From the NCBI GenBank assembly GCA_013151865.1, contig JAADHN010000173.1:1-37152 (forward strand): a stretch of 37,152 nucleotides of DNA, read 5' to 3'. Positions 9,071 to 37,152 of this stretch are shown piece after piece. The number at the start of each line of letters is the position of its first letter. The stretch's first letter is position 1. The position numbers and the translations under genes are program-made. This stretch comes from Kiritimatiellota bacterium. Lineage in GTDB: Bacteria > Verrucomicrobiota > Lentisphaeria > Oligosphaerales > JAADHN01. The notes under the pieces were generated by a model. The model ran no database searches, was not told the origin of the DNA, and saw only the letters and a program-made list of their open reading frames with translations.

Positions 9071-10390
9071 TTACCCCTTGAGTCCGGTCATGCTGACGCC
9101 GCGAATGAACGTCTTCATGGCAAAGAAGAAGAGTATGATCAGGGGCAGGCTGAAAACGGTGGCGGCCGCCATGAGCAAGTGCCACGGAGTGCCGCCGTGC
9201 TCCGAGGCAAAAGCCTGGAGCGAGAGGGAGAGAGTGAACTGCGATTCGTGGTTCAGGTAGATCAGGGGTCCGAGAAAGTCTTTCCAAGTTCCGAGGAAGG
9301 TGAACAGTGCAATCATGGCAATGGCGGGTTTCGAGAGCGGCGCGACCACATACCACAGGATTTCGAGGTCGGAGCAACCGTCGATCCGGGCGGCATCGAG
9401 CAGATCCCGCGGCAGGCCGAGGTAGAATTGCCGCAGCAGGAAAATGAAGAAGGCCGACCCGAACCAGGATGCAACCCACAACGGCTTGAAACTGCCGACC
9501 CAGCCCAGGTCGCGATACAACAGGTAAATGGGAATCATCACCACCGGAAAAGGAATCATCATGGTCGCCAGAGTCACGCCGAACAGCAATTCGCGACCCC
9601 GGAATTGGAGGAAGGCAAAACCGTATGCGACGATGAGGGACGAGATCGTGGTGCCGCATACGACCATGGCGCAAAGGAACAGGGTGTTCCACAGGCTGCG
9701 GGCGAAGTGGACGCGCCGGAGCGCCACCGGGTAGTTATGCGGTATCAGGCGGATGGTCTTCCGCAACCTGCTCTCGGGCAGAACGTCCCAGGCCCGGGTC
9801 ATATCGCCGGCCGCAGCGCCGACTTCTTTGGTGTCGGTGTCTTCGGGCCGCCACTCCCGGACGAGCCAAAGCTTTTCGCCGTTGGACGCGGGCCGGACGC
9901 GGCGCACGACTGCGGCCCGCACTTTGCGGCCCGACTGGAGCGTAAGCAAACCGACGGCGGGGTCAAAAGTATTGCGGGCGTCGGTGAGCACGGTCATGGC
10001 AGAGGTGACCCGCGTGTTCATCCGCGCCAGTTCCTGTTTGTTGAAGACCGGGTACCGGTCCCAGACCTCTTTGCCGAACGGGTGCGTCATTTCTCCGGCC
10101 GGGAACGGATCGAGCGGACGCAGGATGTACACCGGCCGCGACTCGCTGGGGACGATCTCCCGCTCGCGGACAACCTCCAGCCGGCGGCCCCCGATCACGG
10201 CCTGCCAGCCGTCGCCGAAGAAGGCTGTTTTCAGATTCGTGGGCGGCCGCATAGTCTGATCGAGCGGTTTGAGAGAAGTCGCGATCATCCACAACAACGG
10301 CAGCAGAAAGAACAGGCCGCCTCCCGCCAGTGCAATGTGCACCGGAATGCGGGTGGTCCAAGGCAGCGGCTTGTTCGGGGCGTTCGACAT
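9071..10390 (-). CDS. Carbohydrate ABC transporter permease, MalG/UgpE type, with large extracytoplasmic insertion
   Basis: A 439-residue inner-membrane permease, well above the usual 270-300. The first membrane helix (about 17-40) ends in the family's IATSLKP. Standard sequence resumes at about 216 with IPHNYPVAL and RSLWNTLFL, followed by five hydrophobic segments. The cytoplasmic EAA loop is LDAARIDGCSDLEILWYVV and PLSKPA (331-356), which contacts the ATPase; the C-terminal GLKG is typical. Between them, residues about 54-215 form a hydrophilic, mixed alpha/beta-looking insertion that would face the periplasm. It is the last of three importer genes, three bases after the MalF-type permease, whose stop lies inside its weak ribosome site. 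No ATPase is encoded here, so a shared MsmX/UgpC-like ATPase elsewhere is inferred. Confidence 0.88.
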   Translation of the reverse strand: MSNAPNKPLPWTTRIPVHIALAGGGLFFLLPLLWMIATSLKPLDQTMRPPTNLKTAFFGDGWQAVIGGRRLEVVREREIVPSESRPVYILRPLDPFPAGEMTHPFGKEVWDRYPVFNKQELARMNTRVTSAMTVLTDARNTFDPAVGLLTLQSGRKVRAAVVRRVRPASNGEKLWLVREWRPEDTDTKEVGAAAGDMTRAWDVLPESRLRKTIRLIPHNYPVALRRVHFARSLWNTLFLCAMVVCGTTISSLIVAYGFAFLQFRGRELLFGVTLATMMIPFPVVMIPIYLLYRDLGWVGSFKPLWVASWFGSAFFIFLLRQFYLGLPRDLLDAARIDGCSDLEILWYVVAPLSKPAIAMIALFTFLGTWKDFLGPLIYLNHESQFTLSLSLQAFASEHGGTPWHLLMAAATVFSLPLIILFFFAMKTFIRGVSMTGLKG

Positions 10391-10393
10391 CTT

Positions 10394-11572
10394 TCAGCGA
10401 CCTGCGTAGTAGACGTGCCGGCGCGACAATCGGAAAGCCAGGAGCGTCAATCCGACGATGACGAGAAAGAGGACCCAGGCCACGGCGGCGGCATATCCCA
10501 CGTTCTGATACTGGAATGCCTGGTCGTAGATGAACAGGGCCACGAAACGGGTCTTGTCCTCCGGCCCGCCGCGGGTCATGATGTAGGGCTCGGTGAAAAC
10601 CTGGAATGTCCCGATAATGGCCATGACCACATTGAACAGGATCACGGGCGAAATCAGCGGCAGGGTGATGTGCCGGGTCTTTTGGATCCATGTGGCTCCA
10701 TCGATGTCGGCCGCCTCATAGAGCTGTATCGGGACGTCCTGCAGTTTGGCCAGGTAGATCACGGCCATCTGCCCAACGCCCCACATGCTCATCACGACGA
10801 TGCCCCACAAAGCCCAGGACGGGGCGAAGGGCACGGCCGCAGGAAAAGGCGACGCGTCGGAAAGCCATCCCGGAGAATGCAGCTTGCGCATATCGCCGGG
10901 CATGAACCGAACCATGACCACGTACAACACGGGCAGCACGGCAAGCGTGCAACTCAGCGCCGCCGCGAACCGCACGAGCCGAAACAGTCCGGCCCGTTTT
11001 GTCAATTCGCTCCGCAGCCACGGCCCGAAGGCGAGCAGGGCCGCGACGGGACCGGCTGCGAGCATGGCGGACCACCGCACGGGGAGGATGCGCCCTCGGG
11101 CGGCGGCCTCGAGGTCGAAGAACAGCCCGGTCCAAACGTCCACCCCATGCATGAGTTTACCCAGAAAAAGGTTCAACAGTCCGTAGTCCGGATTGAAAAT
11201 CCAGAGCCACAGCAGGGCCGTAACCACGGTGGGCACAAGGTGCGGGAGAAAGAAGATGACACGATAGAGCGCCTGACCCCGGATACGGGTATTCAGAAGC
11301 AAGGCGAGCGTGAGTGCCAGCAACACCCCGAGAGGGATGGCCGCTGCGCCGTAAATCAGGGTCACCCCCAACGAGCGATGAAAAACGGGGTCGTGCAACA
11401 ATTGGGCGTAGTTGTCGAGTCCGATGAACATGGGAGTTTTGAGCGGGGGAAAATCGCAGAAGCTGAAATAGAACCCGCCCAGGAACGGGAAGCCGATGAA
11501 CAGGCCCAGGGCGATCAGCCAGGGCAGGACGAACGAATACCCGGTCAACGATTTTCGGACGGATGCTCTCAT
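10394..11572 (-). CDS. Carbohydrate ABC transporter permease, MalF/UgpA type, with extra membrane segments
   Basis: A 392-residue permease, partner of the MalG-type protein. Standard elements are the first helix (10-36), YRVIFFLPHLVPTVVTALLW (103-122), NPDYGLLN (127-134), PGWLSD (234-239), and the EAA loop EAADIDGATWIQKTRHITLP (286-305). Between NPDYGLLN and PGWLSD, which are normally close together, lie about 95 additional residues containing two hydrophobic stretches (about 167-186 and 198-222). Its ATG overlaps the stop of the solute-binding protein gene as ATGA (11572-11569), so translation is probably coupled. The substrate is likely a sugar or oligosaccharide, from the family only. Confidence 0.88.
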   Translation of the reverse strand: MRASVRKSLTGYSFVLPWLIALGLFIGFPFLGGFYFSFCDFPPLKTPMFIGLDNYAQLLHDPVFHRSLGVTLIYGAAAIPLGVLLALTLALLLNTRIRGQALYRVIFFLPHLVPTVVTALLWLWIFNPDYGLLNLFLGKLMHGVDVWTGLFFDLEAAARGRILPVRWSAMLAAGPVAALLAFGPWLRSELTKRAGLFRLVRFAAALSCTLAVLPVLYVVMVRFMPGDMRKLHSPGWLSDASPFPAAVPFAPSWALWGIVVMSMWGVGQMAVIYLAKLQDVPIQLYEAADIDGATWIQKTRHITLPLISPVILFNVVMAIIGTFQVFTEPYIMTRGGPEDKTRFVALFIYDQAFQYQNVGYAAAVAWVLFLVIVGLTLLAFRLSRRHVYYAGR

Positions 11573-13074
11573 TCCGTTGTCCCCGGGACCTCAGGCGGCG
11601 GTCCCGTTCGGGACCGGGAGACGGCCCCGAATCTGCGACGCCGAAGCCGGTCCCGCTCACGTTTGAGGTCGAGCTTATGCTGGATGGTCTTGCGCACCTC
11701 GCCGAGGGTGCGCACAATCTCCGGCCGGCAGTATTGAGCGATCTTCCGGTCCAGGGCGGGGCCGCTCAGTCCTTCGATCTCTTTCTCAGGCACCGGGTAA
11801 TCCCAGATATGATCGAAAGCGCGCCCGAGTTCGTCGTTGTACTCCTGCCAGACCGGGAGCTGCGGCAGGATGAACGAGTACGGACTGGCGGCCACGCGCT
11901 CGAACACGGCCAGCTCGAGGTTCGGGTGTCCCTCTCGAAACAACGGCGGCGGATCTTTGATCGGCATGTGTTTGCCCTGGAGACGACAGAGAATCTCGAG
12001 TCCTTTTCCCTGGGCAAACCGGACGAACTCCCAGGCCGCCTCGATCTGCCGGCAGCCCCGGGGAATGGCGATGACGTCCGCGTCCAGGAAAGAACGGGGC
12101 CCGGGCACCCCTCGGGCGGTCGGAAAGGGGGCCACGCCGAAATGCATGTGCGGCCGGTGACGGCGGATGAAGTTGGGGAACCATACCCCTTGGATTTCCA
12201 TGGAGACTTTGCCGGCGATGAAGGCGTTGTTGGGAGAATCGAAATTCCCGAAACCGGCGCGGAACCGGAGCAATTTGTCGCGTCCATACTTTTCGGCATA
12301 TCGTTTGAGCCAGAGAAACGCCCGGATGTTGGCCGAGGAATCGGGGGTGACGCGACCGGTCCGTTTGTCGTACAGACTGCCCCCGAAATAGTAGCCCCAC
12401 TCGGCATTCCACCAACCGGGTTCGGTGGGCAGGAACCCCATTCGCTTGGGCGAGCCATCCGGGTTGAATTCGGTAAGCACGTCGGCGTATCGATCCAGCT
12501 CTTCAATGGTGCGCGGCGGGCGTTCCGGATCCAAGCCCGCAGCCCGCAACTCGCTCGCCTTTTCCTTGAAGTGATCCCGGTTGTAGAAAAGCGCCACGGA
12601 CGCCGGCGTGGTGGGCAGGGCGTAAATGCGCCCGTCGTACGTCCCGATTCGGAGGTATTGCGGCGTATAGCGCTCGGGCGACAGCCCGGACTTGGCCATG
12701 AGCGAATCGAGCGGAAGCAATGCGCCGGCGGAAGCGAAGGGCTGGACGTTCTGGGCCCAAAGTCCCACCACGTCCGGCGGCGTGCCGCCGATGATGGCCA
12801 GCATGGCCTTGCGGTCCACTTGCGAAGTGTTGACATAGTGGACGTAGATCCGGTCCTGACTTCGGTTGAAAGCGTCCACCATGGCTTGGCAGGCATCGCG
12901 TTCGAAGCTGCCCCACTTCTCCCAATAAGCGAGATGAATACGCCGGTCCCAAGAATCCTTGAACGCCGCGTCTCGGACGGGATCGAAGTCTTCGAGCTTC
13001 GGCGGACGCTCGAAGTAGCCGATGCAGAACACGACCGCAATGATGCCGGCCAGTATGAAATGCACGCGGCGCAT
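11569..13074 (-). CDS. Extracellular solute-binding protein, family 1 (carbohydrate ABC importer)
   Basis: A 501-residue binding protein that would capture substrate outside the inner membrane for the two permeases. The mature part begins HLAYWEKWGSFERD and has TPPDVVGLWAQN (about 98-109), IYALPTTPASVALFYNRD and AAWEFVRFAQG, all typical of SBP_bac_1/UgpB-like proteins. The N-terminus has one hydrophobic helix (about 5-21). Its Cys (VVFC) is not in a good lipobox, so it may be membrane-anchored rather than a lipoprotein. The last 60 residues form a Lys/Arg-rich helical tail (LDLKRERDRLRRRRFG) not expected in the family. The start has GGGAG about 7 bases upstream. First gene of the importer operon, divergent from the LWP-repeat gene. 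Confidence 0.9.
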   Translation of the reverse strand: MRRVHFILAGIIAVVFCIGYFERPPKLEDFDPVRDAAFKDSWDRRIHLAYWEKWGSFERDACQAMVDAFNRSQDRIYVHYVNTSQVDRKAMLAIIGGTPPDVVGLWAQNVQPFASAGALLPLDSLMAKSGLSPERYTPQYLRIGTYDGRIYALPTTPASVALFYNRDHFKEKASELRAAGLDPERPPRTIEELDRYADVLTEFNPDGSPKRMGFLPTEPGWWNAEWGYYFGGSLYDKRTGRVTPDSSANIRAFLWLKRYAEKYGRDKLLRFRAGFGNFDSPNNAFIAGKVSMEIQGVWFPNFIRRHRPHMHFGVAPFPTARGVPGPRSFLDADVIAIPRGCRQIEAAWEFVRFAQGKGLEILCRLQGKHMPIKDPPPLFREGHPNLELAVFERVAASPYSFILPQLPVWQEYNDELGRAFDHIWDYPVPEKEIEGLSGPALDRKIAQYCRPEIVRTLGEVRKTIQHKLDLKRERDRLRRRRFGAVSRSRTGPPPEVPGTTE

Positions 13075-13392: not shown

Positions 13393-13425
13393 TTTCGGTC
13401 GCGGATTCAGGGAGAAGGGTGCACC

Positions 13426-14886
13426 ATGCTGCGTGGCGCGAAACGTACGCTCCCGGCCCGGCTACTGATGGTTGTCTCTGTGCTGCTGGCGACGTCGCTG
13501 CCGGCAGCGGGCCTGAACCTGCGCCTGGCCCCGCTCATCGAGATGCAATCCGACCCCGAACAGGGTCCGCTGATGCGGGCACTCGGCCCTCTGTTCGAAA
13601 GATCTGAAACGTTCGAGGGCGAACTGACTCTCGCCTTGCCGCGGCCGTTTTATTGTCGGTTCGAGGGCACGGGCCCCCGCCCCGTCCGGGGACGGGATTT
13701 TCTGTGGCCGTTGGGCGTCACGCGACGTTCCGGAAACGAGACCCAGCAACGCCTGTTGCTCGCCCTGCATACGGACCGCGACATTTGCAACCCAAAAAGC
13801 GCCGAGCGCCGATGGCTTCTTCCCCTGGTCTTTCTGGGACGGAACAAGGCCGGGCACACTTACGCCGCACTCTTTCCCTTGGGCGGCGAAATCGACGAAA
13901 TCGCCAGTTACGATCAAGTCAGGTTCCTGTTTTTCCCCCTGTACCTGGAAACGCAACGCGGCACGGCCCGATCACGCACAGTCTTGTGGCCGGTATTCAG
14001 TCGGACCCGGAGTGCACACGGCAGCAAATGGCGGGTCTTCCCCTTGATCGGCGCATCCTCGACCCCAAACGGAGTGCAACGCTTTTTCCTTTGGCCGGTT
14101 GGACACACGGCACGACTCGATTCAGTCCGTACCGGACGGTCGACCCGGAGTTTTTTCCTGTTGCCTGCGATGGGGTGGAGCCGTTCGCGCCCCTCTGAGG
14201 CGGAATCACCCGACTCGAAAGCCTGGACTGTGCTCTGGCCGTTTTTTTCCGGGAGCATGACGCCCCGTTCTCGGCGCTTGCACTTTCCGTGGCCGTTCTT
14301 CCAGCGGGCCCTCGATATCGGGGCGGACGGGACGCGCACGCTGGACAAGACCTATCTCTGGCCCCTGGCCGGGGTGCGCAAGCGAGGCGAAAACGAAACA
14401 TACCGTTTTTTTCTCTGGCCGATCGTCCATGAGAGAAAGAGCGGCAACAGCCGCAACGGTCGTCATTCCCTGTGGGTCCTGCCTTTCTACTGGTCGGCCG
14501 CCTCTCGACGGGAAGGAGAAGTCCGTTCCGTCCAGCGCCAGGTTTGGCCCCTGGTTCGCTTCGCGCGACGTGGGAAGCGTGGGTTGCTGGCGACGCCCGC
14601 GCTCTGGCCGGGGCCCCTGCCCGCGCCGGTCGACCGGGGCTATGCCCCCCTCTGGCGTCTCTACACACGGCGAGACGAGGGCGACGTACACCGGCATGAC
14701 CTGTTTTGGGGATGGGCCCAGTGGAGCACCGAGGCGGGCCGAATGCGGGACATGGGCCTGTTTCCCTTTTTCCATCTCAGCCGCGGCCGGGATCGGACCG
14801 CACTCTCCCTACTCGGCGGCATCTTCCGGCGCGAGAGCACGCCAACCCGCACACACCGCCGACTCCTCTGGATCTTCAACTGGTGA
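13426..14886 (+). CDS. Exported protein with about twenty 'LWP' repeats; possible outer-membrane beta-barrel; family not recognised
   Basis: A 486-residue protein I do not recognise. Residues 1-28 look like a signal peptide (ARLLMVVSVLLATSLPAAG). From about 90 to the end a short hydrophobic/aromatic unit recurs every 13-25 residues, consensus [FV]-L-W-P-[LVF]-[FVG]: FLWPL (92), WLLPLVF (130), LFFPLY (168), VLWPVF (186), FLWPVG (221), VLWPFF (269), FPWPFF (287), YLWPLA (310), FLWPIV (329), VWPLV (373), GLFPFF (444). Charged, Gly- or Ser-rich turns separate them. The C-terminus LLWIFNW has W, F, W, L at positions -1, -3, -5, -7, resembling the beta-signal read by BamA. An outer-membrane beta-barrel is therefore inferred; a propeller-like soluble fold is the alternative. 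ATG 13426 is preceded by GGAGAAGG. It converges tightly with the beta-helix gene (10-base gap). Confidence 0.75.
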   Translation: MLRGAKRTLPARLLMVVSVLLATSLPAAGLNLRLAPLIEMQSDPEQGPLMRALGPLFERSETFEGELTLALPRPFYCRFEGTGPRPVRGRDFLWPLGVTRRSGNETQQRLLLALHTDRDICNPKSAERRWLLPLVFLGRNKAGHTYAALFPLGGEIDEIASYDQVRFLFFPLYLETQRGTARSRTVLWPVFSRTRSAHGSKWRVFPLIGASSTPNGVQRFFLWPVGHTARLDSVRTGRSTRSFFLLPAMGWSRSRPSEAESPDSKAWTVLWPFFSGSMTPRSRRLHFPWPFFQRALDIGADGTRTLDKTYLWPLAGVRKRGENETYRFFLWPIVHERKSGNSRNGRHSLWVLPFYWSAASRREGEVRSVQRQVWPLVRFARRGKRGLLATPALWPGPLPAPVDRGYAPLWRLYTRRDEGDVHRHDLFWGWAQWSTEAGRMRDMGLFPFFHLSRGRDRTALSLLGGIFRRESTPTRTHRRLLWIFNW

Positions 14887-14896
14887 GCACGGCGTT

Positions 14897-16615
14897 TCAG
14901 GGCCTCTGCGACGCCCCGGGCGTGGCGGTCAATTCGGCGGCATCCGTCACCGCCCGACCATCGATGCGCAGGTCGCGCACCTCCAACTCCTTGACGTTGT
15001 GCAGCATGAGCCGTCCCTGCCGGACCGTGTTGCGGATGAGGCGCAGTCCGGTCCAATTGCGAAAGTCGAGATCACCGCCTTCGGCACGATTCTCTTCAAA
15101 AGTGAAATTCCGGTAATCGGCCGCCTGCATGGGGTAGCGCCGGCCGCCCCGTGTCCGGAAGTCGGATCCCGTGGCCAACAGCAGCCGCGGATTACCCTTC
15201 CCCTTCGTCAGCAGACAGTTCCGCACGATCACATTGCGCGGCAACGGTCCTTCGATCGTGTCGCCGTAAAACCAGAGCAACCCCTGAATTCGACAGTTCT
15301 CGATCAGCACCGGGCATCGCAAGCGACTCGTGCCGACGACCGAGCAATTGCGGATCGTATTCCTCGGATTGCACAAGGCTTCGTCCCAGACGCACGTTTC
15401 CCGATCCAGGCCGGGGAGCGCCGTCTCAAGCCGAATCTCCTTGACCAAGCGGCCGCCCGCAATCGGCGGATTGGTCGCTTGCACAATCCGAGCCCTTCCC
15501 AAAATGCGACCCTGTGGGACACTGTAGGCCACCAAGACATCCCCCGGTCGCATCTCCTTCATTCGCGAAGCGGGAAAAACCTGTCGGATCACGATCTTGT
15601 CCGGCGCCTTCACGTTCTCGACCCGCCAAGTCATGGACGAAATATTGAACGCATCGTCTTGCAGCCCGGCCAGCTTGCAGTCCTCCCAGAGCATTTCGGC
15701 GCGGTTGTCTTTCACGTGGAAGCCGTCCCGCCACGAGGAGGTGAGGCGGCGTGTTCCGGGCTTGGGACGAATGTTGACATTGCGGAAAGAGAGCGCTCCT
15801 TCATTGTCGCTGACGACAAACGAGAAATAGGGCGAGCACCAGATGTCCACATTCTCGAAACGAACGTCGCGGCTGTGCCGAACCTGAAGCCGGGCGTCGC
15901 CGCAATGGGCCAGACCGCGGACCGGCAGAGTGAACCGGTCCGATCCGGGCTGAACTTTCCCGGCCCTGGCATACGACCGCGGCGCGGCGTAGACACGAAA
16001 CCGCCGCGGGTCCGGGGAGTCGCTCCTCACAATCTGCTCGATGAAGTAGTGCCCGGCCTCGATCCACGTCCCGTCTGTCGGGCGCCACAACATGCCGAAA
16101 AAGGGAAACCGGGGCTTGGGCACGGGCGCCGGGTCCGCAGGCGGCGGTTCGAATTCGTCGAGCACGCGCACGTCGATCCAGCGCCCCCGTGGGTCGGCGC
16201 CGACCACGAATGCTTCGCGCAGCGGCAGCGGAGCGTAATCGACTTTGAAGTTTCGAATCTGTATGTTGCGCGAGCCGGAGACATCGAGGACGTTCAGGCG
16301 CGGATGCAGCAGGAACAGGCTCCCACGGCCGTCCACCGTGGTGTTCTTCATACCCTCAAGACGCAAGAAAGTATCGTGGGGTGCGCTCGACACGCGGTAA
16401 GTCCCCGGACGGTCGAAGACTACGGCAGCCGGGCCCGCAGCCCGGGTCGCGGCCTCCAGCGCCCGGGCCACGGCCGGCCCGGAGTCGGTCGCCCCGTCGG
16501 GTACGGCGCCGAAATCCGAAACCCGGAAGATCGCCATGGCAGAAGCCTCCTGCAACAATGGCATCAGCGTGATCGAGAGTGCCCCGAGCACGCGGTTGAG
16601 TCGTTGGCGGGGCAT
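14897..16615 (-). CDS. Secreted right-handed beta-helix protein, GH110/GH28-like
   Basis: A 572-residue protein with a signal peptide (1-26, ending LLQEASA). The mature protein opens with VSDFGAVPDGATDSGPAVARAL, the pectate-lyase-superfamily start found in GH28, GH110 and related enzymes. Repeating N-x-x-I/V coils follow (SRNIQIRNFKVDY; VRFENVDIW; LSFRNVNIRPK). The probable active site is SSWRDGFHVKDN (D297) and GLQDDAFNIS (D320-D321), which resembles the DDAxN block of GH110 alpha-1,3-galactosidases. A C-terminal set of parallel coils runs to about 560. The exact activity cannot be fixed; a glycosidase or lyase acting outside the inner membrane is inferred. The start has GGGAGAAGAG upstream. 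Last gene of a minus-strand series following the GT39-like gene by 138 bases. Confidence 0.8.
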   Translation of the reverse strand: MPRQRLNRVLGALSITLMPLLQEASAMAIFRVSDFGAVPDGATDSGPAVARALEAATRAAGPAAVVFDRPGTYRVSSAPHDTFLRLEGMKNTTVDGRGSLFLLHPRLNVLDVSGSRNIQIRNFKVDYAPLPLREAFVVGADPRGRWIDVRVLDEFEPPPADPAPVPKPRFPFFGMLWRPTDGTWIEAGHYFIEQIVRSDSPDPRRFRVYAAPRSYARAGKVQPGSDRFTLPVRGLAHCGDARLQVRHSRDVRFENVDIWCSPYFSFVVSDNEGALSFRNVNIRPKPGTRRLTSSWRDGFHVKDNRAEMLWEDCKLAGLQDDAFNISSMTWRVENVKAPDKIVIRQVFPASRMKEMRPGDVLVAYSVPQGRILGRARIVQATNPPIAGGRLVKEIRLETALPGLDRETCVWDEALCNPRNTIRNCSVVGTSRLRCPVLIENCRIQGLLWFYGDTIEGPLPRNVIVRNCLLTKGKGNPRLLLATGSDFRTRGGRRYPMQAADYRNFTFEENRAEGGDLDFRNWTGLRLIRNTVRQGRLMLHNVKELEVRDLRIDGRAVTDAAELTATPGASQRP

Positions 16616-29234: not shown

Positions 29235-29302
29235 CAGATGGAAATCAGGTTTCGACCAACATGACCGAAACGCGAAGGAAAGGGTCCCGGCATGACAGCG
29301 AG

Positions 29303-29308
29303 AAGGAG
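29303..29308 (+). promoter_or_regulatory. Shine-Dalgarno site choosing ATG 29316
   Basis: AAGGAG lies 7 bases before ATG 29316, a better site than that before the in-frame ATG 29292, and the shorter protein has a cleaner signal peptide. Confidence 0.6.
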
Positions 29309-29315
29309 CCGATTG

Positions 29316-32300
29316 ATGTCGGCACGGTTTCGCAAGTGGGCAATCCTGATTGTGCCCTTCCTCCTCACCGGCGGGGCCCGGCTCTGCAACGCAGCCCCGG
29401 GCATTCGTTCCTGCGCCCGACTTTTGTGGGGCGGAGTGGCGGAGTTCGCCCGGGCCCGCACCCGGAACAGCATGTCCGCTTCCGTCCGTCGGCACGTCGC
29501 AGCCGGCAATGTGTCGCGGGACGCGGTCTTCCTCCACCCGCAGGCGTCGGGCCGGACCCGAGCCGAGTACCCCGCGGTCCGGTTCACCGCGCCGGCAGCT
29601 ACCCGCGTGCTGTTCCTGGCATGGGCCGGTCTCGGCGACAAGACCCCGCTCGACGATCCGGAACATCCCGCCGACGGGGTCCGGTTCTATGTGCTGGTAA
29701 ACGGGCGGGAAGTGGCTCGGACCGAGGTCCGAACGCATGGCTGGCAGCCGCTTTTCGCGGACCTGGGGACCGTGGCCGCAGGGGAACGCGCGGAATTCAC
29801 GGTGACCCTCGCCACCGACGCCGGCGCAGCGGGCAATTCGAGCTATGACTGGGCCTTGATCGGAGATCCGCAACTGGTGGCTGTGCCGGACGTCCCGCTC
29901 CCCCCGAATCGCACGGTCCGGGGCACCGCAGGCATCTTCGCGACATCCACAGCCGACCCCGGAACGCGTGTCGTCATCCGCGCCGTCGATGCCGATGGAA
30001 AAATCGTCCCGGACGCTTCGGTCACCGTGGCAGGGAAGGACGGGGTCGTTCTCACCCGTTTCGACTTCAGTCGTCTGCCGGCCTGCGTCGGCTGGCAGTG
30101 GCGGACCGTGATCGGTCGCGTGGATCGGGCCCGGGGCGGAAGCTGGACCGCGCAACTCGTGGTTGAGGGCGCCGGGCCGGCTCGGGCCGTTTCCACGGCC
30201 GGAGACGCGGTATCGGTCCGGGTCGCGCTTCGAAATGCGGGGATGGCTTCCCTGCTTCCGGACGACGCGGCCGTGGTCGAATGCGCCGGCAAACGCCGGC
30301 CGGTGGCGAGCCTCGGCCCAGGGGCGTCCACAACCCTCGATTTCGAACTCGGCCCCCGGCCCGCCGGACCCGTGAAACTCGACTGGCGACTCACGTCACG
30401 CCTGGGGCCGGCGCTGACAGGGGACCTTCCCGTTTTTCAAGTTTGGCCGAGCTTGCCCGCCTTACCGGTGGGCCGACCTCTCCGCCGTCGTGTACTCCGC
30501 CTGGGCAGAACGCCCGGCTGGCTGCTTCTCGAAGACCGCAGGGTCCGGTGGCTGATCAATCCGACGGTCCCCGGGATGGGGGCCCTGTTCTGGGCGTGGA
30601 CGCCCCGGGGCTGGGAATTGTGCGGCTCCGCATCGCCCCTGGTCGAACTCGTCCTCGCCGGAAATGTGCCGGTGGTTCTCCGATTCCAAACGGCCGCTCT
30701 GTCCCGCGTCGGCCTCGCGGGGGCGGCGGTCCGGGCGGCGGCCAGAGGACCCGACGGCGCCTTGATCGATGTCCGGGCCGAGTTCTCCCTTGTCGAGGCC
30801 GCCCCCGCTCTGGCCATTGCGCTCTCCGCAACGTCGGACCGACCGGTCCGGATCGCCGCCTTTCGCGGCCCCGCCGTGCACGCCGGCGACCGGAACACGG
30901 GGGAAAACAAGGGCGTGGCCGTCTTCCCCGGCCTCGAATACCTCGACGGTCCCGAGCGCAGTTCGAGCACCCGCGACCTCGCCCCCCCCCTGAATGTCCG
31001 AGTGGCGCCGCACAAGTTCAAGATCTGTGTGCCGATCATGTTCGTCGAGACACGCCCCGAAGGCCCCGTGACCGCCGTGATTTGGGACGCGCGTCAACGC
31101 TGGAACGGCCGGGATATCGCCCCGGCCGCCGCTTTTGCCTCCCCGAACTTCGTTCAACATCAGGCCAACCACCTGATGCAAGTTTTCCTGCCGTCCATCC
31201 CCGATTTCGTACCCGAAAACAGATTCCTCGCTGCGGACGCTCCCTACGCCCTGGTCCCGGGAGGGACGGTCGCGCTCCGAATGTTCGTGGCCGTCGGCAT
31301 CCCCGCCCCGGACGCCACCGGCGCGTTCGCCTGGTTCGACGCCCTCGTCGGTTTCCCGCCCCCGGAATCGCCCCCCCGAAACTTCGAAGAAGAAATGGCC
31401 CTCTGCCGCCAGGGGTTTCTGAAAACTGTCTGGGACCCCGAATCTCAGCACAACAAACACGTGGTGGGCAAGGCCCACGGCAATTCGCCGGGCGCGGCCG
31501 CTCTTCTCCTCATGGACGCCCGCGCCGTGGCCCGCGGGCCGGTCCGCAACGAATTGCTCGAACGCGTTCGGACCATCGCCCGCCAAACGATCCGAGAACA
31601 AGGCCCCGGCGCATTGTCGAGCAGCAATCTGTGTCATATCATGCGGGCCGAATTCCCGTTTCACTACGGTGAAATGCCCGCCGGACTCGGGAGGCTTCGG
31701 GCGGATGCCCGTGCCGCCCTCGATTCACAGGAGAGCGACGGCGGCTGGGGATATTACCCCGATGAACAGCGGCGCGCCCTTGGAAAACGGGGAACGCGCG
31801 TGATCGGCATCGCCGCGCGAAACGCCTCCGTGCTCGCCAAATGGGCAGCCGTCAGCGGCGACCCGGAAACCACGGGCGGACTGCGACGGGCACTCGAGCA
31901 CATGCGCCGTTACACCGTGCCGCGCGGCGCCCAGGGCTGGGAATGCCCGATCCTCGAACCGGATGTCCTGGCCGCCGCTTATGCCATTCGCACGTACGTC
32001 TGGGCTTACATGGCCCTCGGGGACCCCAAGCTGCTCGAACATGCACGGTATTGGGCTCGGACCGGTCTCGCCTTCCAGTATGCCTGGGACGACGGCAAGC
32101 ATCCCGGGATGCGATACGCCGGTATTCCCGTGTTCGGCAGCACGTTTTTCAATCATTCCTGGATCGGACTGCCCGTGCAATGGTGCGCCCTGGTTTACGC
32201 CTACAGCCTCCAGGAACTGATGCGGTTCGACCCCGACCCCCTATGGAAGAAGCAGGTCGAAGGCATCACCGTCAGCGCCATGTTCCAGCAGTGGCCCATG

Positions 32301-33188
32301 GACAACCGGGAACTGGCAGGGACGTATCCGGACAGCTTCGGGCAATGGTTCACCCGCCGAAACCCCGTGCACATCAACCCGGAAAACATCGAAGTGAACC
32401 TGCTGGCCCTGCACGGACTCGATCCGGGCTTGCGCTCGGTCCGGCTGCCTGATGCCGGCAACACCGTACACGTCACCGCGCCGTGCGACCTGAAAGCCGC
32501 CGTCGATCGCACTCGAGTTTCCGTGGACCTGACGTACCTTCCCGGCCGAACCGTATACTTCACGGTCGCACCCGTCCGCCCCACCGCTTCCGCCGATATC
32601 ACGGTCGGGGGCCGCGGCCTGCCCCGCAAACCTCATTTGCCCGGCGGCACGACCGGATGGGCCTACGATTCCGAAACCCGCCTGCTGGCCGTGGGCGTAA
32701 CCTGCGACAACGAGGGCCGGGCCCGGGTCACCTTGGCCGGGGTGACGCCTTCCACGCCCGACTCCCGAGCCGCGGCTTCGGCGTGGGAGTTCGCTGCCGA
32801 TGCAGAGGGTTGGAGGATGGGCCATTCGTCTGCCCTCGAAGCCGTCGACGGCGTCCTGCGCATCACTGTAACCGGCTCCGACCCGTACGCGATCAGCGGC
32901 AGGGCCGCCATCGATGCGGCGAAACACCGGGCCCTCCGCGTCCGGGCCCGCATGAATCGCGCCGGTCAGGTCGGCCTCTTCTGGCGCTCGACGGTTTCGC
33001 CCCAGTGGAGCGCTTCGAAGAATATCAATCTGCCGCTTCCGGGCGACAACCGCTGGCACGAACTCACATTCAACTTGGCCGACCAGCCGGACTGGGACGG
33101 GCGCATCCTCCAAATCCGCCTCGACCTCGAACCTGCCGACCTGCCGCCGGGGACACGCCTCGAGGTGGACTGGGTCCGGCCTCGATAG
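29316..33188 (+). CDS. Large secreted protein with carbohydrate-binding-like ends and an alpha/alpha-toroid-like core
   Basis: A 1290-residue exported protein; the signal peptide is FRKWAILIVPFLLTGGARLC and ends near NAAP. Residues about 68-187 resemble an NPCBM-like jelly-roll (VRFTAPAATRVLFLAWAGLG ... GVRFYVLVNGREVARTEV). A beta-rich region follows to about 680. Residues about 690-1035 are helical with spaced Trp and aromatic residues (SQESDGGWGYYP, VRTIARQTIRE, AAAYAIRTYVWAYMALGDP, FFNHSWIGLPVQWCALVYAY), in the style of (alpha/alpha)6 glycan-active toroids. The last 135 residues (WEFAADAEGW ... WHELTFNLADQPDWDG ... RLEVDWVRP) match the jelly-roll common at the end of planctomycete carbohydrate enzymes. 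I cannot assign a family; a secreted glycoside hydrolase or lyase is inferred. An upstream in-frame ATG exists at 29292. Confidence 0.8.
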   Translation: MSARFRKWAILIVPFLLTGGARLCNAAPGIRSCARLLWGGVAEFARARTRNSMSASVRRHVAAGNVSRDAVFLHPQASGRTRAEYPAVRFTAPAATRVLFLAWAGLGDKTPLDDPEHPADGVRFYVLVNGREVARTEVRTHGWQPLFADLGTVAAGERAEFTVTLATDAGAAGNSSYDWALIGDPQLVAVPDVPLPPNRTVRGTAGIFATSTADPGTRVVIRAVDADGKIVPDASVTVAGKDGVVLTRFDFSRLPACVGWQWRTVIGRVDRARGGSWTAQLVVEGAGPARAVSTAGDAVSVRVALRNAGMASLLPDDAAVVECAGKRRPVASLGPGASTTLDFELGPRPAGPVKLDWRLTSRLGPALTGDLPVFQVWPSLPALPVGRPLRRRVLRLGRTPGWLLLEDRRVRWLINPTVPGMGALFWAWTPRGWELCGSASPLVELVLAGNVPVVLRFQTAALSRVGLAGAAVRAAARGPDGALIDVRAEFSLVEAAPALAIALSATSDRPVRIAAFRGPAVHAGDRNTGENKGVAVFPGLEYLDGPERSSSTRDLAPPLNVRVAPHKFKICVPIMFVETRPEGPVTAVIWDARQRWNGRDIAPAAAFASPNFVQHQANHLMQVFLPSIPDFVPENRFLAADAPYALVPGGTVALRMFVAVGIPAPDATGAFAWFDALVGFPPPESPPRNFEEEMALCRQGFLKTVWDPESQHNKHVVGKAHGNSPGAAALLLMDARAVARGPVRNELLERVRTIARQTIREQGPGALSSSNLCHIMRAEFPFHYGEMPAGLGRLRADARAALDSQESDGGWGYYPDEQRRALGKRGTRVIGIAARNASVLAKWAAVSGDPETTGGLRRALEHMRRYTVPRGAQGWECPILEPDVLAAAYAIRTYVWAYMALGDPKLLEHARYWARTGLAFQYAWDDGKHPGMRYAGIPVFGSTFFNHSWIGLPVQWCALVYAYSLQELMRFDPDPLWKKQVEGITVSAMFQQWPMDNRELAGTYPDSFGQWFTRRNPVHINPENIEVNLLALHGLDPGLRSVRLPDAGNTVHVTAPCDLKAAVDRTRVSVDLTYLPGRTVYFTVAPVRPTASADITVGGRGLPRKPHLPGGTTGWAYDSETRLLAVGVTCDNEGRARVTLAGVTPSTPDSRAAASAWEFAADAEGWRMGHSSALEAVDGVLRITVTGSDPYAISGRAAIDAAKHRALRVRARMNRAGQVGLFWRSTVSPQWSASKNINLPLPGDNRWHELTFNLADQPDWDGRILQIRLDLEPADLPPGTRLEVDWVRPR

Positions 33189-33503
33189 AACCCCGACGGG
33201 GGCCTTCAAGGACCTCGGAATGCACGGAAGAGGGAAACTCGCCCGGACGGGGCGGGCGGACTCGGCGTTTCGGCGATGTTCCGGGACTTTGAATGCCCCG
33301 TTCGCGTCGCGGCCCTCGGGCGTGTTGAACCGAAGCCGGGCCGGAGTTTCGGTGAACAGCCGAACTCCCGTGCTCGCAAGAAAACGGCAGAGCCCGATCC
33401 GGGTCCGCCCGAAATGCAACCTCGAGGGGGGAAGCAACCGGATAATCGAGACTCGAAGGAGCAATCTGCGCGCGACGCCCTCCGAACTCAGGAGATCTCG
33501 ACC
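33189..33503. other. Intergenic region before the GNAT-GH38 gene
   Basis: 315 bases. The frame of the downstream gene stays open back to 33276, but its composition is Arg/Pro-rich and the conserved protein starts at 33504. GATAAT at 33441-33446 is a possible -10 box without a good -35. CCCC-GAC-GGGG just after the previous stop could be a small hairpin. Nothing else supported. Confidence 0.35.
33490..33494 (+). promoter_or_regulatory. Shine-Dalgarno site fixing the GNAT-GH38 start
   Basis: AGGAG sits 9 bases before ATG 33504, where the recognisable acetyltransferase domain begins. Confidence 0.6.
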
Positions 33504-36500
33504 ATGAACAACGAACTCTTACCGCGCATGGTCCCTTTGCGACACGGCCGGCCGGTATTGGTGCGGACCCTCGAACCGAGCGACGGACCGGCGCTCGGCG
33601 AGTTCCTGGAATCACTTTCCCGACGGACCGAGCACTTCTTTCATCCGTTCCCGCTCACGGCCGAATCCGGGGCGCGTTTTGCCAAGCGAACCGACGTTCA
33701 GGCCGCGATTGCACTGGATCCTGTTGAAAACCTCATTGTCGGCATGGCCTGGACCAGTTCCGCCACGCCGCCCGGTTTCGGCATTTGCGTCCGCGACGAC
33801 CGCCAGGGCCGCGGTCTGGGTCGACGCTTGGCGGCGATCACGCTGGCACAGGCCCGCGAATCCGGCGCCGACGCTGTTCAATTGACTGTGCTCAAAGACA
33901 ATCCTGCCGCCAAACTGTATCGGGAACTCGGGTTCATTGCCGACGGCGAAGCTTCCGACCCGCGAGGCCCCTCCCTGCATATGACGCTGCATTTCGATGG
34001 CAACGAATTCCTGCCCGGGATCGTCGAAACCGGCGACGACATTCGGCGAGAACTGGCCGGGGCCAAACTGCTCATCGTCCCTTATTGCCATGCAGATTGG
34101 GCCTGGACCCACACCCGCCAGTGGCACGCTCTGCGCTACGTCCAAGTCCTCGAAGAAGTCCTCGACATCTTCGAGCGGCAGGACCGAGACGGCATCCCGT
34201 CGGACGCCCCGCACGCCTTCCGATGGTACCTGGACACAGTCGCCATGGAACTCGAACCATTCATGGAACATTCGCCCCAACGCCTTCCCGAACTGCGCCG
34301 GCGAATCGCCGAAGGACGCGTGGCCGTGTGCGGCGGGTTCGCCAACGTGCGACCGAACATGGTGGGGGACGAAACATTCCTCCGGAGCCTGCTCATCGGC
34401 GGGCGCGAATTCCGACGTCTCTTCCCCGAAGCCGACCTCGGGGTGTTCGCCGACACGGTGGACGTGGCTGTCGGTCACCCGCAAATGCCCCAGATCTTAC
34501 GATTGGCCGGTTTCCGAGGGTACCGCTTCTGGAGGCCCCAGACCGCGCTCAACCTGAAAGGGGTCCCGTTCGAGTTCGTTTGGGAAGGACTCGACGGGGC
34601 TCGAATCACCTGCAGCCGCGGTTGTTACGGCGGCGTAATCTCGACGCGCCTGGTCCCGAGCGACTTCTGCGAACACTGGGATGAAACACTGCGGACTTGG
34701 TGGGAACTCGAGATCGCCGCCCGAGCCATCCTTTCCCCCGCCGCCCTACCCGTGCTGAACCACGGCATGGACGACGCCCGACCGCTCCATACAAATTTCC
34801 ACGAAGACGCCCCCCTGGATTTGCCGGCTTTCATCGAGGAATGGAATCGCCGTGAAGTCACCCCCATGCGCTTTGCTACGCCACTCGACGTATTCCGGGA
34901 ACTCGAGGAACGCCGGGACAAGCTGCCGGTGGTCTCCGGTGTAATTGATCCGTGCGACGTATGCTACAACATGGCGTGGAACGGATCGGGGGGTATCTGG
35001 CGGCTGCGGATTCTCGGTGACCGGGCCCTCACCGCGGCCGAACGCTGGCGAACGCTGGCCCGGCAGGTGGGTTGCCCCTATCCGGGAGACGAATTGGCCG
35101 AACTCTGGCGCGAGCTGCTGCCCGTCTGCGCCCATGCGGTGCAATGGTTGTTCGAGGAAGATTACCGGGAAATGCGGGAACGGGCGCTCACGGTCATCCG
35201 CCAAGCGGACCGACTCCGGACGGAAGGGCTGCAGGCGCTGGCGAAAACGCTGCCAAACACAACGCTTGCAAACTCCCTTCCCCCGCCTGCCGCCGTGTTC
35301 AATCCATCCCCGTGGGTCCGGAGCGCTCAGGTTCGGCTCCACTTGGCATTCCCGGCGGGGGCCCCCGAGGAATGCCGGCTCACGGATACCGCAGGAAACA
35401 ATCTGCCCTGGCAGATCGTCACCCAGTACGATCACGCCGGCAAGACCTGGGAATGGGACGTTGAAGCCGTCGTTTCTCTCCCCCCCCACGGAATGACGGC
35501 AGTCTGCATCCGGCCGGGGGGGGACTCGATCCAGGCGCCTCGAAAAGAACGACCCGTCCGCGGCGGCAACGCCACACTCGAAGGCAAGCTTTGTGCCGAG
35601 TTTCGGAAAAAACGCCTGACAGCGGTCCACGACCGTGCGGCAAGTCTCCGGGTCGAAACGGAAGGACCCGAGGAAATCGGTACGCTCCGCCTCTATGAAG
35701 TCGACCCGAACGCCCCCTTGCATGTGGGCGAAATCCTGTCGGTGCACGAGGTCAGATGGACAAGGCCCCGGCGAGTCCGATTCGGTCCGGTCCGCCACAT
35801 GCTCCGGCGCAGCGGTCGCGTCGGGCCGCATCGGGTCGAAATGGATGTGTCCACGTTTCCAGACGATGCCCGGATCGAATGGCGGATCGCCGTCGACTGG
35901 AAAGACTGGAACGGGTTCCTGGCTCTCGAACTGCCCGTCCCGTTCCCGGTCGAGTTGCACGGCGACATTCCTTTCGGCGTGCAGGAGATCGACTTGGAAC
36001 ACGAGCCGTACGGCCCGCTCCCGGTCCGCGGCTGGGAGAATATCGAGCGACGACGCCCCGGTCTGTTTTTTGCCCGCAGTTTCGTATCGGCCGTGGGACG
36101 AGAGAAGGGGTTGACCCTGATATCGCATGACGGCGACCGCTACTACCTCTGGGACAGCCGCCGGTCCGTGTTGAGCCACGTGCTGATCAACAGCTTCAAG
36201 AAACCGCAGGCCGGTTGGGAACAGTACATCAACGAGGGGATCGGCGGCCGGGGCCACCACGAGTTTCATTGCAGTCTGCTCTTGCACGCCGGAGACTGGC
36301 GTGACGCCGGCATCGTCCGGCGTGCCGCCGAATTGCGGAATCCGCCCGACGTCCTCGATGCGATCGCCTGTGCCCGCGTCCCGAACACTCACGCGGAATT
36401 CCCCCAGTTTTCGGTCGAACCGGCCGAGGTGCTGCCGGCAGCCCTGTACAGCGACAGCGGCGCCACGTTCCTGCGCATCAGCGAAATGCACGGCGCAGGC

Positions 36501-36668
36501 GTCGCCGCAAGGGTGCGATTGCCGGGGATCCGTCGGGCCGAAGTCGTGGACCTGTCGGGTCGTTTGTTGCCGGACCGGAAGGTTCGCGTAATCGACGGCA
36601 TGATCGAGGTCGAATTGCGACCTTGGGAAATCTGCACGCTTCGACTCGATCTCGCAAAACTCGACTGA
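33504..36668 (+). CDS. GNAT acetyltransferase fused to a divergent GH38 alpha-mannosidase
   Basis: A 1054-residue protein without a signal peptide, so probably cytoplasmic. Residues 1-165 form a GNAT domain: acetyl-CoA loop R100-QGRGLG (motif A), then LTVLKDNPAAKLYRELGF, the standard motif B end. From about 187 a GH38 domain begins with LLIVPYCHADWAWTH, where H197 and D199 are zinc-type ligands. The nucleophile block is FADTVDVAVGHPQMPQIL: spacing to the PQIL segment puts D320 at the place of the Asp in the usual DxFG, so the Phe-Gly are replaced by Ala-Val; D317 is a second candidate. The central and C-terminal beta domains (AAVFNPSPWVRSAQV; LISHDGDRYYLWD) follow the GH38 pattern to the end. 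The family cleaves alpha-mannosides by a retaining mechanism. Possible substrate: an acetylated or amino-sugar mannoside, which is speculation. Confidence 0.87.
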   Translation: MNNELLPRMVPLRHGRPVLVRTLEPSDGPALGEFLESLSRRTEHFFHPFPLTAESGARFAKRTDVQAAIALDPVENLIVGMAWTSSATPPGFGICVRDDRQGRGLGRRLAAITLAQARESGADAVQLTVLKDNPAAKLYRELGFIADGEASDPRGPSLHMTLHFDGNEFLPGIVETGDDIRRELAGAKLLIVPYCHADWAWTHTRQWHALRYVQVLEEVLDIFERQDRDGIPSDAPHAFRWYLDTVAMELEPFMEHSPQRLPELRRRIAEGRVAVCGGFANVRPNMVGDETFLRSLLIGGREFRRLFPEADLGVFADTVDVAVGHPQMPQILRLAGFRGYRFWRPQTALNLKGVPFEFVWEGLDGARITCSRGCYGGVISTRLVPSDFCEHWDETLRTWWELEIAARAILSPAALPVLNHGMDDARPLHTNFHEDAPLDLPAFIEEWNRREVTPMRFATPLDVFRELEERRDKLPVVSGVIDPCDVCYNMAWNGSGGIWRLRILGDRALTAAERWRTLARQVGCPYPGDELAELWRELLPVCAHAVQWLFEEDYREMRERALTVIRQADRLRTEGLQALAKTLPNTTLANSLPPPAAVFNPSPWVRSAQVRLHLAFPAGAPEECRLTDTAGNNLPWQIVTQYDHAGKTWEWDVEAVVSLPPHGMTAVCIRPGGDSIQAPRKERPVRGGNATLEGKLCAEFRKKRLTAVHDRAASLRVETEGPEEIGTLRLYEVDPNAPLHVGEILSVHEVRWTRPRRVRFGPVRHMLRRSGRVGPHRVEMDVSTFPDDARIEWRIAVDWKDWNGFLALELPVPFPVELHGDIPFGVQEIDLEHEPYGPLPVRGWENIERRRPGLFFARSFVSAVGREKGLTLISHDGDRYYLWDSRRSVLSHVLINSFKKPQAGWEQYINEGIGGRGHHEFHCSLLLHAGDWRDAGIVRRAAELRNPPDVLDAIACARVPNTHAEFPQFSVEPAEVLPAALYSDSGATFLRISEMHGAGVAARVRLPGIRRAEVVDLSGRLLPDRKVRVIDGMIEVELRPWEICTLRLDLAKLD

Positions 36669-37152
36669 GTGCACATGCGGAACATGCGCATTGGTTGACT
36701 CCCGAGCAACGCCTCGGTCCGCTGGCCGGGAGGTGCGCGGCTCTCCCCCCGGCGGAAGAACGGAACGCTCTTCTCTTCTCCTTTCCTGTCTCTTGTCCTG
36801 AACGGCCAAACCGTCGCTGGGACGCACGTTTCGCAGGCTCTGTCCTGCAAGGTCGTTCGGGGACTCGCGCTGTGTTCTGCCCTGAATCATGCGTGAACCG
36901 TCTGCTGCGGTGACGCGTCTCGCACATCTGCAAGACATTGCTGCCCTCCACCGACCGAGGCGATGTTTCAACACGGCCTCGCCCAGCATCCGTCCCAACA
37001 ACCTGAATTCCTCCAGGCCGCGCCCTCTCGCAACGACGTTCATGAATCATCCAGGCCAATTCATCGCCTCGACTTTCGCTCCGGATGTGGACCCCTCCCA
37101 GGCGACGCCCCAGGGCCGATTTGTACCGTTGCCGGATTTCGACTCCGGGATC
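36669..37152. other. Right-edge stretch without a convincing gene
   Basis: 484 bases after the GH38 stop. Composition is less coding-like than elsewhere and no ribosome site precedes a long frame. The best candidate is an ATG at 37042 opening a plus-strand frame (MNHPGQFIASTFAPDVD...) that runs off the edge. An opposite minus-strand frame is also open, so neither is called. Confidence 0.3.

Follow-up and report, generated by a model that had tools for sequence, protein, structure and literature searches.

LWP, an exported repeat protein and probable component of Mla-type lipid transporters

The gene at 13426..14886 (+ strand) of the 37,152-nucleotide stretch of DNA analysed here (the window) encodes a protein of 486 aa; we use the name LWP for this protein and for its family. 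With a probability of about 95%, in our judgement, LWP forms part of an Mla-type lipid transporter. It is a conserved exported protein of the mlaEFD operon, present in over 40 families of one phylum and largely missing where MlaA and MlaC occur. Within such a transporter, LWP likely relays lipids in place of MlaC and MlaA, working on the side of the periplasm or outer membrane.

How lipids pass across the periplasm outside Proteobacteria is an open question, to which LWP offers a testable candidate answer. A 2023 Veillonella study described MlaA and MlaC as mostly proteobacterial; its survey with MlaA-F profiles recorded PVC MlaD proteins without an outer-membrane barrel, and its authors asked whether non-homologous proteins take the place of the missing outer-membrane parts (PMC10665443). 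LWP also adds a family whose fold is predicted with confidence and has no global match among solved structures.

A family of exported repeat proteins

The LWP gene, its stop codon included, is an open reading frame supported by family alignments and by the structural model described below. A Shine-Dalgarno-like AGGGAGAAGG (13409..13418, +) can be read in the sequence about 7 nt 5' of the ATG; a promoter scan 5' of the gene found no sigma-70-type site. Residues 1-28 (13426..13509, +) have the makings of a signal peptide, with the n-region MLRGAKRT, a hydrophobic core and an SLPAAG end, and are modelled by AlphaFold2 as a helix. A hydrophobic N-terminal core of the same kind is found in 61 of the 65 aligned members, the start codons of the homologues being set by rule. 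The signal peptide and the export proposed in an earlier note on this DNA are supported. The lipobox rule is fitted by 8/65 members, from which it seems that some LWP proteins are probably anchored lipoproteins.

The LWP repeat is real and lies beyond chance. Past residue 29, we counted 14 copies of the motif hydrophobic-[LVIFWY]-P-hydrophobic, where 1.7 would be expected and 20,000 shuffles gave at most 8. Fifteen motif prolines are conserved across the family, and nine of them are invariant in 65 sequences (P133, 151, 171, 189, 206, 224, 247, 272 and 375). The earlier note had counted about twenty repeats; the repeat itself holds, while the number comes down to about 15 units. Downstream, the C-terminal segment (residues 400-486, 14623..14883, +) carries the motifs RNYAPLW.LY and LLWG, conserved in the family alignment. 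Its very end, RRLLWIFNW, resembles one further LWP unit.

By its sequence, LWP belongs to what we take to be an undescribed single-copy family. BLAST found it in 15 of 99 relatives. Of 388 genomes, 173 contain a strong match to a 17-member profile (E below 1e-25), mostly one each; this search was confined to one phylum, whose sample includes many incomplete metagenome assemblies. Since records named as Lentisphaerales and Kiritimatiellae belong to the set, this phylum is probably Verrucomicrobiota as defined by GTDB. The window's own genome (G000) holds a single copy. With the window protein as query, neither Pfam nor NCBIfam returned a match at E up to 10. The 65 homologues had no Pfam match at E 0.01, and so none to the MlaA (PF04333), MlaC (PF05494) or PF03886 profiles. 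In NCBIfam, at E < 0.01, they gave a single match: one homologue (L089) aligns over about 100 residues with LA_1737 (NF047486), a family that takes its name from a Leptospira protein, and scores 28 bits where the curated cut-off is 60. The LWP profile matched no sequence in the PDB, and nothing was matched in a plasmid collection. The earlier suggestion of a new, unrecognised family is thus borne out: no named domain family in Pfam, no PDB entry and nothing near an NCBIfam cut-off accounts for it. A literature search, mainly outside subscription journals and preprints, found no paper describing an LWP component; for Leptospira LA_1737 or Verrucomicrobia Mla partners, it returned nothing relevant beyond PMC10665443.

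Weaker matches to the LWP profile (E 1e-4 to 1e-13) also occur, sometimes several per genome, for example in G013, G023, G025, G204 and G229. They perhaps represent a wider superfamily of repeat proteins, which may include the Leptospira LA_1737 family.

Linkage to mlaEFD and exclusion of MlaA and MlaC

The evidence that carries the Mla assignment is the gene's context among homologues. Clustering of neighbours revealed three genes following LWP in 19 of 22 loci, identified through Pfam as MlaE (PF02405), an ABC ATPase (MlaF, PF00005) and MlaD (PF02470). The same LWP-mlaE-mlaF-mlaD order recurs in 34/40 further loci, taken mostly one per family. Linkage is therefore seen in 53 of 62 loci. Leaving aside L113 and L115, which are cut off by a contig end, 60 loci are informative, and the 53 linked ones share one arrangement: LWP lies directly 5' of mlaE-mlaF-mlaD, on the same strand and within about 300 bp, across more than 40 families. 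Start and stop codons often overlap in these loci, several gene pairs by 4 bp. Their MlaD proteins are long, at about 310-420 aa. The homologue profile and survey of gene neighbours that the earlier note had suggested thus led to 173 genomes and to mlaEFD.

The window itself is one of the exceptions, LWP having no adjacent mlaEFD there, which counts against the Mla assignment. The other informative loci without linkage are L066, L067, L111 and L112, all from the window's order, together with L077 (family f45) and L106 (family f32). The LWP gene is displaced from the mlaEFD operon in the window's order, and the unlinked loci of this order share no neighbour besides LWP itself.

The divergent neighbour in the window (11569..13074, - strand; Pfam SBP_bac_1) is an extracellular solute-binding protein of a sugar-type ABC transporter, whose permeases are encoded at 9071-10390 and 10394-11572 (Pfam BPD_transp_1). 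On the other side, a convergent gene (14897..16615, -) encodes a pectate-lyase-like protein (PF12708). We place both neighbours outside the LWP system: neither the sugar ABC operon nor the pectate-lyase-like gene is kept beside LWP in its closest relatives. The adjoining, divergent position of the ABC genes speaks for the pore for imported glycans that the earlier note had thought possible. A pore or binding protein serving that transporter is hardly credible, as the conserved neighbour elsewhere in the phylum, nearly everywhere, is mlaEFD. Further along the window, between 28345 and 37152, candidate long ORFs at 29292-33185 (+), 32244-33464 (-) and 34749-37043 (-) have no Pfam match.

The window's genome contains two MlaE and two MlaD genes, arranged in two operons. 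The MlaEFD operon on contig C129 (L073, 4217-10787 in locus) is without a PF03886 partner; close by are two genes for the synthesis of envelope lipids, uppS (PF01255) and one for a cdsA-like cytidylyltransferase (PF01148). The operon on contig C9 (L072, 9544-13381 in locus) encodes an STAS-MlaE fusion, MlaF, MlaD and a PqiC-type lipoprotein (PF03886), and operons resembling it exist in G011 and G017. This C9 operon seemingly represents a distinct type of MCE transporter that has a partner of its own.

A tree built from 86 MlaE proteins groups those linked to LWP into two clades with 99-100% support. The MlaE of contig C129 falls within the LWP-linked clade of 51 rows (100/100), alongside the MlaEs of the order's remaining genomes in which LWP is unlinked; all LWP genomes of this order have an MlaE in one LWP clade. 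We next placed 60 additional MlaEs, 59 being from genomes that lack LWP; neither clade received any. In the sample tested, the presence of LWP tracks the two MlaE clades exactly.

The distribution of LWP is largely the inverse of that of MlaA. Among the 388 genomes, 17 have both, 156 LWP only, 136 MlaA only and 79 neither (Fisher p = 7e-29, ignoring shared ancestry). LWP and MlaC occur together in just 8/388 (Fisher p = 6e-5, again ignoring shared ancestry); wherever we checked, separate contigs carry the two genes. The exchange of LWP for MlaA recurs inside families: in f31, for instance, LWP is present in 26 genomes and MlaA in 10, and a single genome has both. In 8 loci with both MlaC and MlaA, the two genes are situated 3' of an mlaE-F-D set whose MlaE belongs to a separate clade. 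Against replacement speak the 17 genomes with LWP and MlaA and the 79 with neither.

Predicted fold

With 17 sequences, AlphaFold2 returned a model at pLDDT 86 and pTM 0.72; with 65 homologues, these values rose to 94.3 and 0.82, and the two models place the strands almost identically. The better one is all-beta, with some 45 strands, each about 6 residues long, in keeping with the beta-strand repeats announced earlier. According to DSSP of this model, the core (residues 87-390, 13684..14595, +), which holds the invariant prolines, is built of hairpins in which LWPx connectors alternate with polar two-residue turns. None of the 14 strict motif prolines lies in a predicted strand, because the LWP motif is the connector between two strands; the earlier note's proline inside each strand is thus explained away. 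The average of 15 units in 65 sequences is hydrophobic from P-4 to P+2, with polar or charged residues predominating outside that stretch. Taken with the placement of the connectors, these averages suggest a meander with one hydrophobic and one charged edge.

Foldseek found no solved structure above a TM of 0.25 of the query among the matches listed. The top E-values went to teneurin, WD propellers and ApoB100, at TM below 0.2 and rmsd over 20 Å, and we discarded homology to these proteins on those grounds. Matches of higher probability include the single-layer sheets of OspA and viral MORN proteins; the viral structures matched were MORN repeats and phage proteins, and we read no homology into them either. 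Sheets of the MORN/OspA type reach a Foldseek probability of 1.0, yet a TM of the query of at most 0.23. Like the predicted LWP fold, they are antiparallel meanders of short strands; they are without sequence relation to it, and the resemblance is in kind only.

The protein had been thought to found a new outer-membrane beta-barrel family, and an integral barrel could in principle be the outer-membrane pore of the Mla system. LWP is exported and all-beta, and barrels do serve other such systems, as OmpC with MlaA or the barrel of the Veillonella MlaD (PMC10665443). The window protein also has a BamA-like terminal aromatic residue, and its last residues read L-L-W-I-F-N-W, alternating as the earlier note had described. 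This signature is a trait of the window protein and not of the family: 9/65 members end in F, W or Y, 8/65 follow the alternating pattern, and 8/65 are lipoprotein-like. The model itself argues further against a barrel. Membrane-crossing strands of about 9 or more residues with an alternating hydrophobic face are not seen in the prediction; the strands are shorter, and every hairpin has a proline-containing connector at one end. The hydrophobicity follows an edge instead of alternating faces, and with one such edge and one charged edge, the predicted pattern would not be that of a transmembrane barrel. Porin-type barrels in the fold search reached TM only below 0.1 of the query. Altogether, an integral outer-membrane barrel is quite improbable.

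Possible role and related systems

LWP is probably located in the periplasm and, since some members are lipoprotein-like, may be anchored at the outer membrane. There it would pass phospholipids between the inner-membrane MlaD ring and the outer membrane, with the edge of aligned F-V-L-W-P-L-Y connectors in the model as the likely contact surface. We infer the location of LWP, its contacts with lipid and with MlaD, and the direction of transport alike. A genome-wide profile search of the window's genome found neither MlaA nor MlaC, and LWP would thus do their job. Known lipid-binding proteins have no similarity to LWP, which counts against a lipid-handling role.

LWP could instead belong to the Mla complex without carrying lipid: as a scaffold or tether, it would keep the MlaD ring close to the outer membrane or peptidoglycan while lipids move through the long MlaD itself. 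The length of MlaD in LWP-type loci would suit this arrangement, a periplasm-spanning long MlaD having been proposed elsewhere (PMC10665443), and the repeat rod could well be structural. Yet the exclusion of MlaA and MlaC by LWP suggests that the lipid-handling part is what has been replaced, and the invariant hydrophobic stripe of connectors is more than a simple tether requires; we therefore regard a purely structural role as unlikely. A bolder form of the relay can be drawn from the model, and we offer it tentatively, as rather doubtful: the protein would be a new kind of bridge-like lipid transfer protein, one sheet composed of about 45 short strands that spans the periplasm, and phospholipids would slide from the MlaD ring along the unbroken hydrophobic edge formed by its LWP connectors until they reach the outer membrane. 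At 4.8 Å per strand, the sheet would measure about 200 Å if fully extended.

The closest functional parallels to the relay are the MlaC and MlaA proteins of E. coli. The first of these is a small, soluble chaperone for lipids, the second a helical lipoprotein that associates with OmpC. Both are exported and partner MlaEFD towards the outer membrane, and LWP replaces both in its distribution. No relation in sequence or fold is seen between them and LWP, an all-beta repeat protein whose gene stands at the operon front. In Veillonella parvula, the long transenvelope MlaD likewise belongs to an MlaEFD system without MlaA and MlaC; there, bridge and outer-membrane barrel are contained within MlaD, whereas LWP is a separate protein (PMC10665443). 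The PqiC-type lipoprotein (ABC_trans_aux) is, like LWP, an envelope partner encoded with an MCE transporter; however, it belongs to another family, its gene lies at the operon end, and it was not found in the LWP-type loci examined.

LWP, MlaA and MlaC are all missing from 79 of the 388 genomes, and MlaE is still present in most relatives; a further outer-membrane partner may be left to find. In families f8, f14, f16 and f11, MlaA domains are found in open frames of about 600-850 codons, against 250-300 for ordinary MlaA. The genomes with these long frames are mostly without LWP and MlaC, and the frames possibly encode fusion proteins.
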